Assembly (NCBI RefSeq): GCF_004684245.1
Contig: NZ_CP038452.1
Span: forward strand, 744,001-808,000
DNA length: 64,000 nt
Direction: 5' to 3'
Source of the DNA: Thermus caldilimi
GTDB taxonomy: Bacteria; Deinococcota; Deinococci; Deinococcales; Thermaceae
The notes beneath the pieces are model-generated. The model was not told where the DNA came from. It was given only the letters and a program-made list of their open reading frames with translations, and ran no database searches. The position numbers and the translations under genes are program-made. Below, in pieces: positions 9,388 through 29,938 of this stretch; the stretch's first letter is position 1; each line of letters opens with the position of its first letter.

Positions 9388-10176
9388 TTAGCGCAAAACC
9401 CCCTCTACCAGCCGCTGGGTCATGCGGCCCACCAAAAGCATCAAGCCGTGGAGGATGGCTCCGGGCCTTGGCGGATCCCCAGGCACGTACACGTCCACAG
9501 GTACCACCCGGTCCACGCCGGACAGAACCTGAGGACTTCCCGCAAACACCCCTCCCGAAATGGCCTCGTTCCCCACAGCCACCACCCCTTTGGGCTCCGG
9601 CATGGCCTCGTAGGTGCGCCTTAGGGCCTCGGCCATGTTGCGGCTCACGGGGCCCGTGACCAGAAGGGCGTCCGCGTGCCGGGGCGAAGCCCCCACCTGG
9701 AACCCAAAGCGGCCCATGTCGTTAAAAGGGTTGCCAAGAAGGGCGACCTCTGAATCAGCAAGACCCGTGTCCCCGGCACTCACCTCGCGAAGGGCTAGGG
9801 TGGGTAAGCGAAGCGCTGTCCGAGGGAAAGGGGGAGGGCCTGGGTCCAGAAACCCTCCCCTTTTCAGGTCCACCCGCTGGACCAGATCCTCCTTGCGGGT
9901 CACGGCCACCTCCAGGGACCTCATCTCTCCCACGGCCTCCGGGTATACCAGGGCACACCGCCCGCATCCCACGCACCGGGCGAGGTCCAGGCTGAAAATC
10001 CCTTCCGCCTCGGCAAAAGCCTCGCCCGGGCAAAGATGGATAAGCCCTTCGCGAGCCCTCGGGGTCAAGCCCGCTGGCTTCAGCAAGGGGTAGCCAAAAG
10101 CGTGCTGGGGAACCTTCAGGATCTCCTCCAGCTTGCGGGCCAACCTGCCCACCTTAAGCGTGTGCATCAAGCTCAT
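9388..10176 (-). CDS. NuoB/HycG-like small subunit lacking proximal-cluster cysteines
   Basis: A 262-residue protein that fuses a ferredoxin-like N-terminus to a NuoB/HycG-type domain. The N-terminal part has C49 (LCPGEAF) and C68-x2-C71-x2-C74; the next position is Y78 where a second cluster would have Cys. One [4Fe-4S] cluster held by C49, C68, C71 and C74 is therefore plausible. In the NuoB-like part the framework is clear (SPRHADALLVTGPVSRNMAE, AISGGVFAGS, VDVYVPGDPPRPGAIL). However, the four cysteines that hold cluster N2 are replaced: NPFND at 149-153, N203, and D234 in PGDPPRP. It is the sixth complex subunit in the operon. Confidence 0.85.
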   Translation of the reverse strand: MSLMHTLKVGRLARKLEEILKVPQHAFGYPLLKPAGLTPRAREGLIHLCPGEAFAEAEGIFSLDLARCVGCGRCALVYPEAVGEMRSLEVAVTRKEDLVQRVDLKRGGFLDPGPPPFPRTALRLPTLALREVSAGDTGLADSEVALLGNPFNDMGRFGFQVGASPRHADALLVTGPVSRNMAEALRRTYEAMPEPKGVVAVGNEAISGGVFAGSPQVLSGVDRVVPVDVYVPGDPPRPGAILHGLMLLVGRMTQRLVEGVLR

Positions 10177-10184
10177 GGCACCCC

Positions 10185-11516
10185 CTAGAGGTCGCTTCCC
10201 GCATAGGACAGGTCAAAGGACTTGTTGCAAAGGGGAAAGTCCGGCAAGCCTTCCCCCCGGACCGCAAGCTCCAAAGCCCGCCAGTTCTTGAAGCTCGGGT
10301 CCACCCCCTCGGCCATGACCACCTTCCCAGCCTGCACCCGGACGAACCACACCACCTCACCCCTTCCCGCCTCCACCCGGACCAAGGCCTCACCCTCCCC
10401 CGGAGGGGGATCCAGGGCCAGAGGCCCGGCGGGAAGATGGCGAAGGAAGAAAAGGGCGTAATCGAGGGCCTTAAGGGTCTCCTCAGCATACACCTGGGCC
10501 CGGGACAGCACATCCCCTCCCTGGCGCACCACGGGGGTAAAGTCGGGGTAAAGGGGGTCGTCCTGCCTGAGGTCCCTCCCCACCCCGCTGGCCCGGGCCG
10601 TGGGGCCCACGAAACCCAGGGCCAAAGCTTCGGCCCGGCGCACCCCCCCCACATAGCGCATGCGGTCCAGCACCTGGGGATTTTTGAGGAGCCTGGGCAG
10701 CAGGCGGGCCAGCTCCTCCCGGTAGGCGGCGATGGCCTCGAGGTCCGGCTGGCCCTCCCGCCACACCCCCCCAACCCTTAGGAAGTTTCTCCCGTAGCGG
10801 TGGCCGGTTAATCGGTCCAGTTCCCCCTGCAGAAGAGCCCGTATCCGCCCTAACTGGGTAGCCCCATAGGCGTAGCCGATATCGGTGAAGAGCCCAGCCA
10901 GATGTCCCATATGGCCAAAGGCCCGCTCCAACTCCAGGGCTGCCCGGCGAAGGTACTGCGCCCGAGAAGGGGCCTCCCAGCCCAAGGCCCTTTCCCAGAC
11001 CTCGGCGAAAGCCATGGCGTGGGCCACGGGCTCACTCCCCGCCCGCTCCACCAGAAGGAGCGCAGCCTCAGCCCCTTTGCCCGGAATGAGGGAGAGCAAG
11101 CCCCGGTGCTGGTAACCCAGGCGGATCTCCAGGTTCACGATCCGCTCGCCCAAAACGCTAAACCGGAAGTGCCCGGGTTCGATGATCCCCGCATGCACGG
11201 GTCCCACAGGCACCTCGTGGAGGAGGGGAAACTCCCGGAAGGTATAGGGAAGGTCGTGACGCCTGAGGGGTTTCAACCCAGGGTGCCCCACCGGCTCAAA
11301 ACCCCTCTCCCAAAGGGCCCGTTCAAACCAATCCAGAGCGGGAAACTCGGCGGCCAGGCTAGGAAAGCGCCTCCTCTCACCCAAGAGGAAGGTCTCGGTG
11401 AGGCCTAAAGCACCCTTCTGGCCCCCGGGACGCTCTACCCACAGAAGCACCCGGTCTCCATAAGGGAAAAGCGCCACAGGCCTCCCCTCGCGCAGGGCCT
11501 CCCTCACTTTCTCCAC
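10185..11516 (-). CDS. HycE/NuoCD-like large subunit lacking NiFe ligands
   Basis: A 443-residue fusion of a 30-kDa (NuoC-like) N-terminal region and a 49-kDa/hydrogenase large-subunit region, as in HycE/HyfG. The framework is clear: VGPVHAGIIEPGHFRF near residue 105, YQHRGL near 135, ERAFGHMGHL near 197, FVGPTARASG near 302. The N-terminal NiFe motif (normally CGxC) reads RAGSEP at 158-163. The C-terminal DPCxxC motif reads PLCNKS, so only C430 remains. It cannot bind a NiFe site in the normal way. The protein probably works as a proton-pump module without hydrogenase activity. It overlaps the hyfF-like gene by 13 nt. Confidence 0.88.
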   Translation of the reverse strand: MEKVREALREGRPVALFPYGDRVLLWVERPGGQKGALGLTETFLLGERRRFPSLAAEFPALDWFERALWERGFEPVGHPGLKPLRRHDLPYTFREFPLLHEVPVGPVHAGIIEPGHFRFSVLGERIVNLEIRLGYQHRGLLSLIPGKGAEAALLLVERAGSEPVAHAMAFAEVWERALGWEAPSRAQYLRRAALELERAFGHMGHLAGLFTDIGYAYGATQLGRIRALLQGELDRLTGHRYGRNFLRVGGVWREGQPDLEAIAAYREELARLLPRLLKNPQVLDRMRYVGGVRRAEALALGFVGPTARASGVGRDLRQDDPLYPDFTPVVRQGGDVLSRAQVYAEETLKALDYALFFLRHLPAGPLALDPPPGEGEALVRVEAGRGEVVWFVRVQAGKVVMAEGVDPSFKNWRALELAVRGEGLPDFPLCNKSFDLSYAGSDL

Positions 11517-12853
11517 AGCACCACCTCCAACCCCTTAAACACCTCCACCCCCGGGAACACGCCGAGGATCACCAGGATGCCCAGGAGCAACCACAGGATC
11601 CAGAGATCCAAGCCCTGCCCCCTAAGGGGTTTCCCCCTACCAAAGCCCATCTGGGCCATGGGAGAAAGGAGGCCAGCAAACGCCATACCCAGGCCCAAAA
11701 GGTAGAGCCCCGCCAGCCCAGGCCAGCGCATGGCCGCCTCCACCGCCTTAAACTCGGCCAAAAATAGGGGGAAGGGAGGCAGGCTCCCCAGGGCCGCCAA
11801 GGCCAGGACGTAGGGGATCCCCAAGGCCGGCAGGTGGAAGACCAACCCGCCCACCCGCCCCACCTCCTTGGCGTGCGTGAGGGACAGGATACCGCTGGCC
11901 CCCAAAAAGGCCAAGGTCTTGGCCAGGGAGTGGGCCAGGGTATGGAAAAGGGCCAGCCAGGGCAATCCCAGGCCCAAGGCGAAGACCGCCAGGCCCATGT
12001 GCTCCATGCTGGAGTAGGCGAGAAGCCTCTTGTATTCCTTCTGTCCAAAGAGGAAGAGGGCCGCAAATAAAAGGGTAAGCAGGCCAAAGGTAAGGAGCAG
12101 GCTGGAGGCAAAGGCGAAAAGCCCTGCTGCCTGCATGATGGCGGCGTAGCGGAGAAGGGCGTAAAAGGCCACGTTGAGGAGGGTTCCCGAAAGCAAGGCC
12201 GAAGCCGGCCCCGGGGCCTCGGCGTGGGCATCGGGAAGCCAGGCCTGCAAGGGGAATAGCCCCACCTTGGTCCCAAAGCCCACCAAAAGAAGGGCAAAGG
12301 CCACCTTAAGCCCCTCGGGATCGGCCTCCCCCACCAGGGACCGAACCTCTCCCCAGTCCAAGGTGGCCCCACCCACCAGGGCGTAGACCAGGATGACCCC
12401 GATGAGCCCCATGGCGATGCCCACGCTGCCCAGCATGAGGTATTTCCAGGTGGCCTCGAGGGGACGGGCTCCACCCTTGTGGTAGACCAGAAGGGCCGAG
12501 GCCAGGGTGCTCCCCTCCACGAAAACCCAGAGCATGCCCAGGTTGTGGGCCAGGTAGGCCCCATGGGCCGAGGCCAGGAAAAGGGCACCCGCCCAGTAGA
12601 AGCGCCAGGCTTCCTCCCGGGCAAAGTAGCCCCGGGCAAAAAGCGCCACCAGGGCGTAGATCAGGTTGGTCAGAAGAAGATAAAAGAGCCCTACCCCATC
12701 CAACCGGAAAGGACCCGCTGCCGTACCCAGCAGAAACGGAGCCAGAAGAAAGCTGAGGAGGGGCACGAGAACGGAAAGCCGCACCAGCAGACTGGCCTCC
12801 TTGCGGGCCAGGAAGACCACCAAGGGTAAGAGGACCAGAAGATACAGCACCAT
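11504..12853 (-). CDS. hyfF: HyfF/NuoN-like proton-translocating membrane subunit
   Basis: A 449-residue antiporter-like subunit with about 12-14 hydrophobic helices. The conserved ion-channel features remain: the glutamate in MLWVFVEGSTLASAL (TM5-type), the lysine in GFGTKVGLFPLQAWLPDAHAEAP and the KRLLAYSSMEHMGLA helix with Lys and His. These are proton-path residues of complex I/Mrp antiporter subunits. The subunit overlaps hyfE by one base and the large subunit by 13 nt, so the cluster is translationally coupled. Confidence 0.92.
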   Translation of the reverse strand: MVLYLLVLLPLVVFLARKEASLLVRLSVLVPLLSFLLAPFLLGTAAGPFRLDGVGLFYLLLTNLIYALVALFARGYFAREEAWRFYWAGALFLASAHGAYLAHNLGMLWVFVEGSTLASALLVYHKGGARPLEATWKYLMLGSVGIAMGLIGVILVYALVGGATLDWGEVRSLVGEADPEGLKVAFALLLVGFGTKVGLFPLQAWLPDAHAEAPGPASALLSGTLLNVAFYALLRYAAIMQAAGLFAFASSLLLTFGLLTLLFAALFLFGQKEYKRLLAYSSMEHMGLAVFALGLGLPWLALFHTLAHSLAKTLAFLGASGILSLTHAKEVGRVGGLVFHLPALGIPYVLALAALGSLPPFPLFLAEFKAVEAAMRWPGLAGLYLLGLGMAFAGLLSPMAQMGFGRGKPLRGQGLDLWILWLLLGILVILGVFPGVEVFKGLEVVLWRK

Positions 12854-13485
12854 TACCCCCTTAGAGAGCGCATCCTCGCGGTATCCACATGCCCCATTTC
12901 CCCCTTAATGCGGAAGATGAGGATCCCCGCCAAAAACACGGCGGCGAAGGCATCCAAGGCCACCCCCAACTCCACGAAGAGGGGCAGGCCGTGGCTCTCG
13001 GAAAGGGCCATGAGGAAAACCCCATTCTCCAGCGCCAGGAAGCCCAGAACCTGGCTTATCGCCTTTTTTCGGCTCACCATGGAAAGGATTCCCAAAAGGA
13101 CCAAGGCGAGGGCCACGGGCACCCCTTGGGGCAAGGGAGCCTCGGGTAGCACAAAGGCCTTCCCTACCCGGAAGGCCAAGGCGGTGAGGAGCCCTGCCAA
13201 GAGGAGGGAGAGGGAAACGGAGAGGTACCCCTCCACCTCGTGGCTTACCTCGAGGCGGTCGATCAGCCAGAACAGGTACCAGGGTATGAGGACCCCCTTA
13301 ACCGCAAAGAGGGCCAGGCCGGCCAGCACGAAGTGGAACTCCCCTCCCGCGAGCCCGAAGGAAACCAGGGCCAAAAGGACATTCTGCAGGGCGTAGAGCC
13401 GGATGATGGCGTCCAGGCTGCGGCGGCTCACTATCAGGAACCCTGTGGCCAGAATGGCCAGGACTAAGGTGTTTAAAAGCGCCAT
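12853..13485 (-). CDS. hyfE: HyfE-like membrane subunit
   Basis: A 210-residue protein with about seven hydrophobic helices, related to hydrogenase-4 component E (HyfE), a subunit with NuoK-like features. The segments NTLVLAILATGFLIVSRR, RLYALQNVLLALVSF and VSRKKAISQVLGFLALENGVF are the recognisable ones; ENGVF carries a membrane glutamate. It lies between the hyfC and hyfF-like genes and overlaps both. Confidence 0.85.
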   Translation of the reverse strand: MALLNTLVLAILATGFLIVSRRSLDAIIRLYALQNVLLALVSFGLAGGEFHFVLAGLALFAVKGVLIPWYLFWLIDRLEVSHEVEGYLSVSLSLLLAGLLTALAFRVGKAFVLPEAPLPQGVPVALALVLLGILSMVSRKKAISQVLGFLALENGVFLMALSESHGLPLFVELGVALDAFAAVFLAGILIFRIKGEMGHVDTARMRSLRG

Positions 13486-14327
13486 ATCGCCCCCAAAAGC
13501 GCCAGCACCCCGAAAAGGGTGTTGTACGAAAGAAAGTCCGGAAGCCTCAGGTAGCGAAGCTTTACCCCGTAGGTCTCCAGGTAGGCCAGCGCCAAAACCC
13601 AGGCCACCCCCACCCCCAGGAAGACCAGGGGCTTGAACCCTGGCAACAACAAGGCCATCAGCCCCGCATAGAAGAGCATCTTGAGCGACCCGGCAAGCTC
13701 GTACAGGGCCAGAAGAGGACCGCTATGGTCCAGAATCTGCGCCTCGTGGATCATGGTGAGCTCCAGGTGGGTGGTGGGATCGTCCACCGGCATCCTGGCT
13801 CCCTCGGCCAAAAGGCCAAGGGCGAGAGAGGCCAGGGCCAGGAGCAGCACCAAGCTGTTCTCCACCCCAAGCTCGGGTAGACCGCTCAGGGAAAACCCTT
13901 CCCCCAAGAGGACTGCCCCGGCCAAGGCCATAAGGGTCCCGGGCTCCGCCAACACCGTGACCACACCCTCCCGGTAGCCTCCCTGGGCCCCAAAACTGCT
14001 GCCCGCATCCAAGGCCGCCAGCATTGGAAAAAAGCGCCCGAGGCCCAGGAGGTAAAGGGCGAGGAGGAAGTCCCCTTTGAAGGTTGGGCCAGGGAGGATG
14101 GGCAAGAGGGCCAAGGCCCCCAGGGTTCCCAAAAGGGCCAGGATGGGCCCGAGGAGGAAAAGGGGAGTGGTGGGATGGGGCGCTATCCAGACCTTTCGCC
14201 AGAGCTTGATCAGATTTCGGTATTCCATCAGCGGGCTAAGCCCCTCCCGGTGGGTAAGCCTAGCCTTCAGCCACTTGACGCTTCCCGAAAAAAGCGGAGC
14301 CAACACCAGGGCCAAGAACGCCGTCAT
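13473..14327 (-). CDS. hyfC: HyfC/NuoH-like membrane subunit
   Basis: A 284-residue NuoH/HycD family protein that links the peripheral arm to the membrane arm. The loop AEGARMPVDDPTTHLELTMIHEAQ with its acidic and histidine residues is the family hallmark, and about eight helices are visible. The ATG at 14327 is chosen because it overlaps the hyfB stop by 4 nt and gives MTAFLALVLAPLFSG. The open frame runs on to 15305, but that part is an out-of-frame shadow of hyfB. Confidence 0.92.
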   Translation of the reverse strand: MTAFLALVLAPLFSGSVKWLKARLTHREGLSPLMEYRNLIKLWRKVWIAPHPTTPLFLLGPILALLGTLGALALLPILPGPTFKGDFLLALYLLGLGRFFPMLAALDAGSSFGAQGGYREGVVTVLAEPGTLMALAGAVLLGEGFSLSGLPELGVENSLVLLLALASLALGLLAEGARMPVDDPTTHLELTMIHEAQILDHSGPLLALYELAGSLKMLFYAGLMALLLPGFKPLVFLGVGVAWVLALAYLETYGVKLRYLRLPDFLSYNTLFGVLALLGAIWRF

Positions 14328-15979
14328 AGCAAGACCACCCCCAGAACCACCACCAAGGTGAGGAGTTGCAGGAGAAGGTAAAGGTGCAGGCTTCCTGACT
14401 GCAGGGTCTGCACCCAAGCCGCAAGGCGGGCGTAGATCCGCCCCACCCCGGGGTACACCTCGGCCAAGGGTTCCTCCAGACGGGGATGCTCCCCCACCTG
14501 GAGGCGAAGGAAGGGGAAAAGGCGAAGGGCCGGTTCGGCGAAGCCCAGGCCGTTGGGTTGCATCCTGGGGCTGAGGGGCTGGAAACCGCAGTCCCAGGTA
14601 CCGTAGGCCCGCATGGGCATCCGGAGTAGGCCCCGGTAAAACACCCCAGCCAGAACCCCAAGAAGGATCAAGAGAAGCCCGTTGGGGTAGGTGCGAACCC
14701 CAAGGGGGTCCAGGACCAGCCCGGGCACCAAGGCCAAAAGGAGGAGGAGCCCCGCCAGCACCCCAAGACCGAGGCGCATCCCCTGGGTCCAGTGCAGGGC
14801 AGCCTCGCCTCGAGGTAGGCCCAAGAAGGCTAGCCCGTATAGGCGCACGTAGAAGTAGAGGGCCAAGGCCCCCACCAGGGCCAAGGCCCCGGCGGCCAGG
14901 GGCATCAGGAAAGGACCCTGCAAAAAGCCTTGGTAAAGCTGCCATTCCGCAAGAAAGACCGGGCCAGGAGGCAGACCCGCCCCCACCCCCATTCCCCACA
15001 AGGCGAGGGCTCCAAGTCCGGGAGCCTTGCGGAAAAGCCCACCCAAGTGGGAAATCCGCCGCTCCCCCAGGGCTCCTGCACCCAGGAAAAGGAGCCCCTT
15101 GAACAGGGCATGGGCCACCTGATGGAGGAAAAAGGCCCCCAGGAGCACGGGCATGGGCTTCAGCAAATAGGCCCCCAAGGCGGCAAGCATGAGGCCCAGG
15201 TTCTCTACGCTGGAATAGGCCAAAGCGCCCTTTAGGTCCTCTTCCCCAAGGCCCCGCACCAGGGCATACACCGCACCCAAAAGGCCCAGGAGGAGCAAAA
15301 CCCACCCCACCCAGGGCGGGGGTGGACCGAACCAGTACCGGGACTGGTACAAGCCAAGAAGGCCCAGCTTGGTCATGGCCCCGGAAAGCAGGGCCGAAAC
15401 CGGGCTTATGGCCACCGGGTGGGCCTGGGGCAACCAGGCGTGGAAGGGGAAGACGGCTGCCTTCACCCCGAAGCCCAAAAGAAGCCCGGCCCAGACCCAG
15501 TCAGCTCCCACATGTCCGTGCCCCAAAAAGGCCAGGTAAAGCCCAGCCCCAGAAAGGCGGCTCGCCAGGAAAAAGGCCCGGGCCCCAGCCAGGGCGTTTG
15601 GCCCCTCGAGGGCGATGAGAAAATAGCCCAAAAGGGCCATACCCTCCCACAAAAAGAGGAAGCCAAGCCCTGGGGAAGCCAAGGCCACCCCCGCCATGCT
15701 GGCCAGAAAAAGGGGAAGCAGAAGGCCATAAAGGTGCGCCTCACGGGGGTGATGGGCCAGGTAGGCAGGAAGGTAGGGAGCAAGGCCCAGGGTCAAGGCT
15801 CCGAGGAGAAAGAGGTAAAGGTAAGAAGCACCCAACCCCGAAGCCCAGCCCATACCCCCCAGCACCCCCCAAGCCAGGCCCGTCATGCCCAGGAAGAGGG
15901 AAAGCCCCCGGAAACGCCAGGGGGTCCCGGCGGATAGAAGTGCCAGGACCAAGGGCAAAAAGGTCCAAAGGGGGCTCAT
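14324..15979 (-). CDS. hyfB: HyfB/NuoL-like proton-translocating membrane subunit
   Basis: A 551-residue antiporter-like subunit with about 14 helices. The channel residues are kept: the glutamate in FLFLWEGMALLGYFLI, the lysine in GFGVKAAVFPFHAWLPQAHPVA, the lysine in SGAMTKLGLLG and LAYSSVENLGLM. The C-terminal region WDCGFQPLSPRMQPNGLGF is typical of hydrogenase-4 component B. The ATG overlaps the arsR stop by 4 nt, so the regulator and the complex are one transcript. Confidence 0.92.
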   Translation of the reverse strand: MSPLWTFLPLVLALLSAGTPWRFRGLSLFLGMTGLAWGVLGGMGWASGLGASYLYLFLLGALTLGLAPYLPAYLAHHPREAHLYGLLLPLFLASMAGVALASPGLGFLFLWEGMALLGYFLIALEGPNALAGARAFFLASRLSGAGLYLAFLGHGHVGADWVWAGLLLGFGVKAAVFPFHAWLPQAHPVAISPVSALLSGAMTKLGLLGLYQSRYWFGPPPPWVGWVLLLLGLLGAVYALVRGLGEEDLKGALAYSSVENLGLMLAALGAYLLKPMPVLLGAFFLHQVAHALFKGLLFLGAGALGERRISHLGGLFRKAPGLGALALWGMGVGAGLPPGPVFLAEWQLYQGFLQGPFLMPLAAGALALVGALALYFYVRLYGLAFLGLPRGEAALHWTQGMRLGLGVLAGLLLLLALVPGLVLDPLGVRTYPNGLLLILLGVLAGVFYRGLLRMPMRAYGTWDCGFQPLSPRMQPNGLGFAEPALRLFPFLRLQVGEHPRLEEPLAEVYPGVGRIYARLAAWVQTLQSGSLHLYLLLQLLTLVVVLGVVLL

Positions 15980-16305
15980 TCCTCCTCCCTCAGGGCTTCC
16001 AGGCGCTCCCTTTCCGCCTCGAGGTGCCGCTCAAAGATCCGCCGCCCCAGATCTAAGAAGGCGTAGACCTCCGGGTCCCGGGTGCGGTAGTAGACCATCT
16101 GCCCTTCCCTCCTGGCCTCCACCAGGCCCCGCTCCCGCAGGAGGGAAAGCTGCCTGGAAAGCACCGACTGTTCCACCCCAAGCTCCCGTTGCAGGGCGGA
16201 AACCGAGCGCTCTCCCCCCCGCAGGGCATCCAGGATGGCCAGGCGCAAGGGATGGCCCAGGGCCTTAAAGAACTCCGCCTTGTAGCGGTGGAGGGTGCTA
16301 GGCAT
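15976..16305 (-). CDS. ArsR-family repressor, first gene of the hyf-like operon
   Basis: A 109-residue winged-helix regulator. The recognition region VSALQRELGVEQSVLSRQLSLLRERGLVEARREGQMVYYR is ArsR/SmtB-type. It contains no cysteine at all, so it lacks the alpha-3 metal site of ArsR and CadC; its signal is unknown. The ATG at 16305 follows AAAGGAGG by 5 nt. Twelve bases upstream lies a perfect 20-bp palindrome, very likely its own operator, so it should repress itself and the downstream complex. Confidence 0.88.
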   Translation of the reverse strand: MPSTLHRYKAEFFKALGHPLRLAILDALRGGERSVSALQRELGVEQSVLSRQLSLLRERGLVEARREGQMVYYRTRDPEVYAFLDLGRRIFERHLEAERERLEALREEE

Positions 16306-16316
16306 ACTTCCTCCTT

Positions 16317-16336
16317 TGGCTATATGCATATAGCCA
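16317..16336. promoter_or_regulatory. 20-bp perfect palindrome, probable ArsR operator
   Basis: TGGCTATATGCATATAGCCA is a perfect palindrome with the size and AT-rich centre of ArsR/SmtB operators. It sits between the predicted transcription start and the ribosome-binding site of arsR, where binding would block transcription. Confidence 0.75.
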
Positions 16337-16346
16337 CATACTTTCA

Positions 16347-16375
16347 ACCTTAAGCCTCCCCCCCGGTCCTGTCAA
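16347..16375 (-). promoter_or_regulatory. promoter of the arsR-hyf operon
   Basis: On the minus strand, TTGACA (16370-16375) and TAAGGT (16347-16352) are 17 bp apart. The start point would fall near 16340, just upstream of the operator palindrome. Confidence 0.5.
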
Positions 16376-29565: not shown

Positions 29566-29938
29566 GCCCCAGGACAGGGGGGCGGTCGCGCCCGGGAGCC
29601 GAACCTCCCGGGTGAGGAAAGTCCGGGCACCATAGGGCAGGGTGCCAGCTAACGGCTGGGCGGGGTAACCCGACGGAAAGTGCCACAGAGAAAAGACCGC
29701 CAGCGGCCAGGCCAAGGCCTGGTGCGGGCAAGGGTGAAACGGTGGGGTAAGAGCCCACCGCGCCTCCTGGCAACAGGGGCGGCACGGCAAACCCCACCCG
29801 GTGCAAGGCCCAGTAGAGGGGAAGGGCTTGCCCGGCCCGCCACAACCCCTGGGATGGACCGCTTGAGGCCGGCGGCGACGCCGGTCCCAGAGAGATGACC
29901 GCCGAAAACAGAACCCGGCTTACGCCCTGTCCTGGGGC
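29566..29938 (+). ncRNA. rnpB: RNase P RNA
   Basis: The ends pair as helix P1: GCCCCAGGACAGGG at the 5' end with CCCTGTCCTGGGGC at the 3' end. Conserved regions of bacterial type A RNase P RNA are visible, including GAGGAAAGTCCGGGC near the 5' side, GGGTGAAACGGTGGGGTAAGAGCCCACCG in the middle and AGAGAGATGACCGCC...ACAGAACCCGGCTTA near the 3' side. It is the catalytic RNA for tRNA 5' maturation. Exact ends could shift by a few bases. A strong terminator follows immediately. Confidence 0.97.

Follow-up and report, generated by a model that had tools for sequence, protein, structure and literature searches.

A hydrogenase-4-type operon of Thermus lacking the ligands of both the NiFe site and the proximal [4Fe-4S] cluster

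Energy-converting hydrogenase-related (Ehr) complexes, the closest described relatives of the locus analyzed here, have no determined function (PMC6349859, PMC6728331, PMC10284858). The group was described in 2013 (cited in PMC6349859), and the genes Rv0081-Rv0087 of Mycobacterium tuberculosis are an example (PMC6728331). Within Thermus, a cluster of arsR and hyf genes was already mentioned, without further analysis, in the genome paper of T. scotoductus SA-01 (PMC3235269). In the literature searched, with the founding Ehr paper (Marreiros 2013) lying outside that search, we found no earlier mention of an Ehr complex without ligands for cluster N2.

We analyzed a stretch of 64,000 nucleotides, hereafter the window, from the chromosome of Thermus caldilimi (a single contig of 2.45 Mb). 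The operon under study comprises seven genes on the minus strand (16305-9388), and neighboring genes abut or overlap along its whole length. A previous sequence-only reading had described it as a proton pump in which the ligands of both the NiFe site and the proximal cluster are gone, and the alignments reported below bear out this main claim. The features of the operon and of its upstream region are as follows.

16347-16375, minus strand: putative sigma-70-like promoter (TTGACA at 16375-16370, spacer of 17 bp, TAAGGT at 16352-16347; consensus match only)
16317-16336, no strand: perfect 20-bp palindrome TGGCTATATGCATATAGCCA, candidate ArsR operator, between the promoter and the arsR start
15976-16305, minus strand: ArsR/SmtB-family regulator, 109 aa, without cysteine (NCBIfam NF033788, 87.6 bits, cut-off 55; Pfam HTH_20/HTH_5)
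14324-15979, minus strand: HyfB/HycC-like antiporter-type membrane subunit, 551 aa (Proton_antipo_M, 101 bits; top NCBIfam match hydrogenase 4 subunit B)
13473-14327, minus strand: HycD/HyfC/NuoH-like membrane anchor subunit, 284 aa (NADHdh, 75 bits)
12853-13485, minus strand: HyfE-like membrane subunit, 210 aa (NCBIfam hydrogenase 4 membrane subunit E, 3e-24)
11504-12853, minus strand: HyfF-like antiporter-type membrane subunit, 449 aa (Proton_antipo_M, 158 bits; hydrogenase 4 subunit F)
10185-11516, minus strand: NuoCD/HycE-like large subunit, 443 aa, GTG start (Complex1_49kDa, 90 bits; aligned to HycE, MbhL, Nqo4 and Ehr)
9388-10176, minus strand: small subunit, 262 aa, a ferredoxin domain fused to a NuoB/HycG domain (Oxidored_q6, 82 bits; alignments; structure model)

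Profile searches of the seven genes revealed no new cofactor-binding motif and no extra subunit. The flanks were also inspected for the gene of a partner enzyme, such as a formate dehydrogenase or a carbonic anhydrase, and this candidate was rejected, none being present. Within Thermus, the conservation of the flanking genes is simply synteny, and in Meiothermus-type genomes the operon occurs without them; the neighbors of other cluster-less loci share no gene that would hint at a function. Elsewhere in the window, an ordinary bacterial class A RNase P RNA lies at 29570-29938 (275 bits).

The arsR gene is the first gene in every complete copy of the operon in the Thermaceae. The palindrome is identical in two further copies (L034 and L114) and in a remnant of the operon in T. 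scotoductus (L120), and is degenerate or different in other Thermus. A scan of the whole genome with its 18-bp core found no second site even when three mismatches were allowed. The palindrome in front of arsR is thus probably the ArsR operator, and control of the operon by ArsR is suggested by two things, this palindrome and the gene order.

Within the genus, 15 of 27 genomes carry the operon (one of them as the remnant), as do 5 of 23 other genomes of the family and one genome of another family. Comparison between Thermus species gave dN/dS values of 0.04-0.28 across all seven genes, the HyfE-like subunit being the most conserved (0.04-0.07), and the reading frames are intact in many species. 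These results confirm that the operon is real, intact and under purifying selection, and the dN/dS values rule out its being a pseudogene. In T. scotoductus DSM 8553 (L120), about 6.2 kb equivalent to window positions 10003-16240 have been deleted naturally, joining the 5' end of arsR, palindrome included, to the 3' portion of the gene for the small subunit; strain SA-01 of the same species retains the whole cluster (PMC3235269). In Allomeiothermus silvanus, the operon is borne on plasmid pMESIL01 (L133, L125, L126), with two copies on the one plasmid, and in at least one of them a TnpB-like transposase insert separates arsR from hyfB.

Alignments of the large subunit to HycE, MbhL, Nqo4 and Ehr proteins place A159 (or a one-residue gap), E162, S437 and G440 at the positions of the NiFe ligands, as expected from the earlier claim that these ligands had been lost. 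The RAGSEP stretch has one residue fewer than the CGxC region, and the two cysteine positions of that region correspond to A159 (or the gap) and E162. All four cysteines are missing in all Thermaceae copies examined. The proposal that C430 survives from the second NiFe pair did not hold, the positions of that pair being S437 and G440; C430, the only cysteine of the large subunit, lies outside the ligand columns in a PLCNKSF motif found in many Ehr large subunits. HypA and HypD were not found in the source genome, the control searches giving matches, and the marks of a group 4 [NiFe] hydrogenase, namely the two CxxC pairs in the large subunit and HypA/HypD in the genome, are thus lacking. The tyrosine of the complex I quinone site is likewise not conserved in the large subunit; with this residue and the N2 ligands both absent, the complex does not qualify as respiratory complex I, of which the same genome holds a separate, complete-looking set.

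In the small subunit, the positions of the four ligands of the proximal (N2) cluster are occupied by T137, A140, E204 and D234, both in the HMMER alignment to MbhJ and NuoB and in multiple alignments with Ehr proteins that have all four cysteines. The four proximal cysteines are missing in every Thermaceae copy examined. Among the residues that the sequence-only reading had assigned to these places, D234 was correct, whereas N149/D153 lie about ten residues downstream and N203 is off by one residue. The possibility, raised with that reading, that complete cysteine sets are present in shifted positions was also addressed; the alignments contain no shifted set, and this candidate was rejected, the NuoB domain being devoid of cysteine and the large subunit having C430 only. 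The ferredoxin-type [4Fe-4S] site (C49, C68, C71, C74) is, as had been predicted, complete, and it is present in all Thermaceae copies examined. We take these residues to be Cys 4 to 7, the cluster II ligands of a two-cluster ferredoxin, and presumably the equivalent of N6b, which in complex I is the cluster adjoining N2. The cluster I ligands of the ferredoxin domain are lost, Cys 8 being Y78. An AlphaFold model of the small subunit, predicted as a single chain like the other models (pLDDT 83.6), has MbhJ (6cfw_J) as its best match, with an rmsd of 1.2 Å over 132 columns, which suggests that the fold is kept despite the missing ligands.

The membrane subunits, by comparison with known relatives, keep their channel glutamates and lysines, in agreement with the initial description, and conserved Glu, Lys and His residues are evident in the alignments: E112, K173, H290, K294 and E345 in the HyfB-like subunit; E120, E128, E175, D182, E189, E195 and E251 in the HycD-like subunit; and E113, K196, K275, K312 and E367 in the HyfF-like subunit, the last set being in part common to the Nqo subunits of the same genome. 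In the antiporter-like and HycD-like subunits, the channel residues are near-invariant across the Thermaceae and also occur in four-cysteine Ehr complexes, and those of the antiporter-like subunits are largely common to the complex I subunits of the same genome. From these retained residues, the operon is predicted to encode an ion-translocating membrane arm. The DabA (DUF2309) partner gene that marks a DAB/MpsAB inorganic carbon transporter is absent among the seven operon genes.

To place the complex among its relatives, we built maximum-likelihood trees of large subunits with 87 and 123 rows, complex I rows being included in the 87-row tree only. The Thermaceae complex groups with Ehr, has hydrogenase-4/complex I-type subunits including antiporter-like ones, and is devoid of the NiFe cysteines, all of which are features of Ehr; the proximal [4Fe-4S] ligands usual in Ehr, which to our knowledge are not part of the definition of the group, are lacking. 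Alignments, trees and the absence of HypA/HypD therefore support the earlier view of an Ehr complex that has additionally lost its proximal cluster. In both trees, the sister group of the Thermaceae clade, with starred support, consists of Ehr from Omnitrophota, Desulfamplus, Magnetominusculus and Anaeromyxobacter, to which the 123-row tree adds Variovorax. This sister clade, which was not part of the sequence-only reading, has no NiFe ligands and retains the proximal cysteines; in the Thermaceae lineage, the NiFe ligands were therefore lost first and the proximal cluster later. Plasmid-borne Ehr relatives of Rhodococcus, Rhizobium, Azospirillum and Variovorax keep all four proximal cysteines.

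The loss of the proximal cysteines is not confined to the Thermaceae. It requires nine changes on the 123-row tree, at least eight of them forced by starred branches, although some long rows, notably L129, are uncertain in place, and the frequency of loss is not an unbiased one because the relatives were gathered partly with queries that held cluster-less members, including a peptide containing D234. The losses are found in the Thermaceae, in the G004 lineage of the same order, in an actinobacterial/Chloroflexota clade, in Castellaniella/SZAS-46, in Melainabacteria, in Paenibacillaceae and in three Chloroflexota groups. Taking one representative per loss, the residues at the four positions are TAED, DEDS, DDES, DLEC, CEGD, PCDD, DCED, DADD and DADN, so that Asp or Glu accounts for 22 of 32 substitutions of proximal cysteines. 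As a control, we used the other non-acidic columns conserved in the four-cysteine relatives (an earlier version of the test used ten rows). In the same proteins, acidic residues made up 1 of 20 substitutions in columns conserved to at least 85% (Fisher p = 7e-6) and 2 of 72 in columns conserved at 70% (p = 7e-13). The composition of the queries does not by itself explain the acids at positions other than that of D234, and no fewer than two base changes are needed to turn Cys into Asp or Glu. All nine sets have two or three acids each, a count equal to the 2-/3- charge of a [4Fe-4S] cluster with four cysteine ligands; in the Thermaceae the acids are E204 and D234, and at least seven other independent losses are likewise acidic. 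Exceptions to this rule are DVAT and SLDC, with one acid, and CCPS, with none, in rows inside or adjoining the counted losses. Recurrent loss with convergent acidic replacement was absent from the sequence-only reading. The ferredoxin-type ligands are kept in the separate losses of Actinobacteria, Chloroflexota and G004, and in other losses (L059, L110, L191-L197) the small subunit is without such ferredoxin-domain cysteines.

Several of these relatives show further peculiarities. Proteins of Chloroflexota (L040/L170, L171, L172, L173, L175, L177), Melainabacteria (L059) and Paenibacillaceae (L080) keep the four NiFe-type cysteines in the large subunit and have lost two to four of the proximal ones in the small subunit, the small-subunit sets found beside retained NiFe-type cysteines being DCED, DTED, DCES, DADD, CEGD and PCDD. 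A search for HypD in six Chloroflexota genomes found it in G601 and not in the other five; some of the genomes are incomplete MAGs. In Actinobacteria (L142-L145, L076), the first two proximal cysteines are kept, while Pro takes the third position and Ser the fourth (CCPS), a different, acid-free half-loss. In Castellaniella caeni, a gene for an inorganic pyrophosphatase (L110:12616-13269), possibly by chance, lies directly downstream of the cluster-less Ehr locus; the small subunit encoded there is without a ferredoxin domain.

With a single cluster left and the next site at a distance that we take, from known structures, to be about 20 Å, electron transfer to the old active site would be too slow to be useful, and we infer on sound grounds that the usual electron path is closed in the Thermaceae complex. 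The reading that we tentatively prefer is that of an Ehr subclass without the proximal cluster, in which a pump is coupled to a head without the ancestral electron chain, with acids as a stand-in and the remaining cluster as a redox input or sensor. A shade more guardedly, we propose that the independent losses define a recurrent, convergent class of the complex I superfamily without an electron path to the ancestral active site, in which acids make up for the lost cluster charge and redox chemistry at that site gives way to something else as the drive or gate of the pump. Such a complex would fold and assemble like membrane-bound hydrogenase or complex I, and ion movement in its membrane arm would be coupled to changes of conformation or electrostatics in the head, no electrons passing along the ancestral chain from the proximal cluster to the active site. 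The acids would substitute for the cluster charge or might bind a divalent cation in the pocket, and would thereby preserve the electrostatic setting of the loops that link head and membrane arm. The ferredoxin-type cluster would act on gating rather than form part of a wire, and ArsR would repress the operon from the upstream palindrome until some signal arrives.

That this cluster is strictly retained, in the Thermaceae and in separate losses alike, speaks against a machine with no redox role whatever and leaves room for a quinone or another cofactor bridging the gap. The complex might thus still be an oxidoreductase, in which the ferredoxin-type cluster directly feeds a quinone, flavin or other acceptor deeper in the head, lodged in the room vacated by the proximal cluster and the NiFe site, and drives pumping as in complex I. 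Retention of the whole coupling apparatus fits this possibility, as does the respiratory sulfane sulfur reductase of Pyrococcus (MBS), in which the head has switched its acceptor chemistry (PMC7684303). However, the operon offers neither a new cofactor motif nor an additional subunit, the quinone-site tyrosine is not conserved, and some independent losses have no ferredoxin-domain cysteines in the small subunit; we consider it possible, though on the unlikely side. Less probable still is that the acids form a new catalytic metal site (for example for Mn, Zn, Mg or Ca) and that the proton gradient is used or made by a non-redox or metal-centered reaction. Two or three Asp/Glu together with Ser, Thr or Asn stand at the former ligand positions in all nine lineages, which speaks for such a site, but E204 and D234 of Thermus are a weak ligand set, and the positions vary by lineage (TAED, TDES, DADN), which suits a role in charge better than a fixed coordination geometry.

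We find it very improbable that an unusual Fe-S cluster is still bound through Asp, Glu, Ser or Thr at the four replaced positions. Clusters with an Asp or a Ser ligand do occur in other proteins, but the Thermus NuoB domain holds no cysteine at all, and we know of no precedent for ligation purely by carboxylates and hydroxyls. The three-Cys proximal cluster of MBS (PMC7684303) is a further point in its favor. The patchy distribution within the genus and the deletion in T. scotoductus DSM 8553 could be taken as signs of a decaying relic without function; purifying selection on all seven genes contradicts this, as do reading frames that are intact, and channel residues that are conserved, in many species, and a relic is the least credible of these explanations.

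It is still a matter of debate how distant proton channels come to be driven by a redox event in the complex I head. Natural complexes that have the full coupling apparatus and lack the last cluster allow one to ask whether pumping is driven by the arrival of electrons, by the charge of the cluster or by a change of conformation. That two or three acids have repeatedly taken the place of the cluster points to its charge as perhaps the indispensable part. They also provide a comparison set for Ehr complexes lacking an assigned function, that of M. tuberculosis included.

Compared with known systems, the Thermaceae complex shares with Ehr the six hydrogenase-4-type subunits, the loss of the NiFe ligands and the absence of Hyp genes, and with the M. 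tuberculosis complex, whose function is also undetermined, an ArsR-type regulator as the first gene (Rv0081). The Ehr relatives examined have four proximal cysteines and the Thermaceae complex has none. One of these relatives is the copy on Rhodococcus plasmid pRZP3, whose gene order we take to be that of Rv0082-Rv0087; as a stand-in for the M. tuberculosis protein, it keeps all the cysteines, and the idea that proximal loss is common to complexes of the mycobacterial type was rejected. The sister-clade Ehr (L062 and L073, Omnitrophota; L041, Desulfamplus; L083, Magnetominusculus; L057, Anaeromyxobacter; L138, Variovorax plasmid) resemble the Thermaceae complex in their C-terminal NKSF motif, in being NiFe-less and, for most, in the fusion of the ferredoxin domain to the small subunit, but differ in their proximal cysteines, the Variovorax copy having both ferredoxin clusters. 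MBS, the nearest precedent for a changed proximal cluster, is likewise a member of the complex I superfamily that has lost the NiFe site; however, its proximal cluster has three cysteines and serves catalysis (PMC7684303), whereas the Thermaceae complex has no proximal ligand. Membrane-bound hydrogenase (6cfw) and formate hydrogenlyase (7z0s), the best sequence and fold matches of the Thermaceae head subunits, differ in possessing the NiFe site and the proximal cluster. Mrp antiporters and DAB (DabA/DabB), like the proposed Thermaceae pump, combine complex I-type membrane subunits with the absence of an electron wire, but they are without the NuoB/NuoCD/NuoH-like head, which the Thermaceae complex has fully kept.
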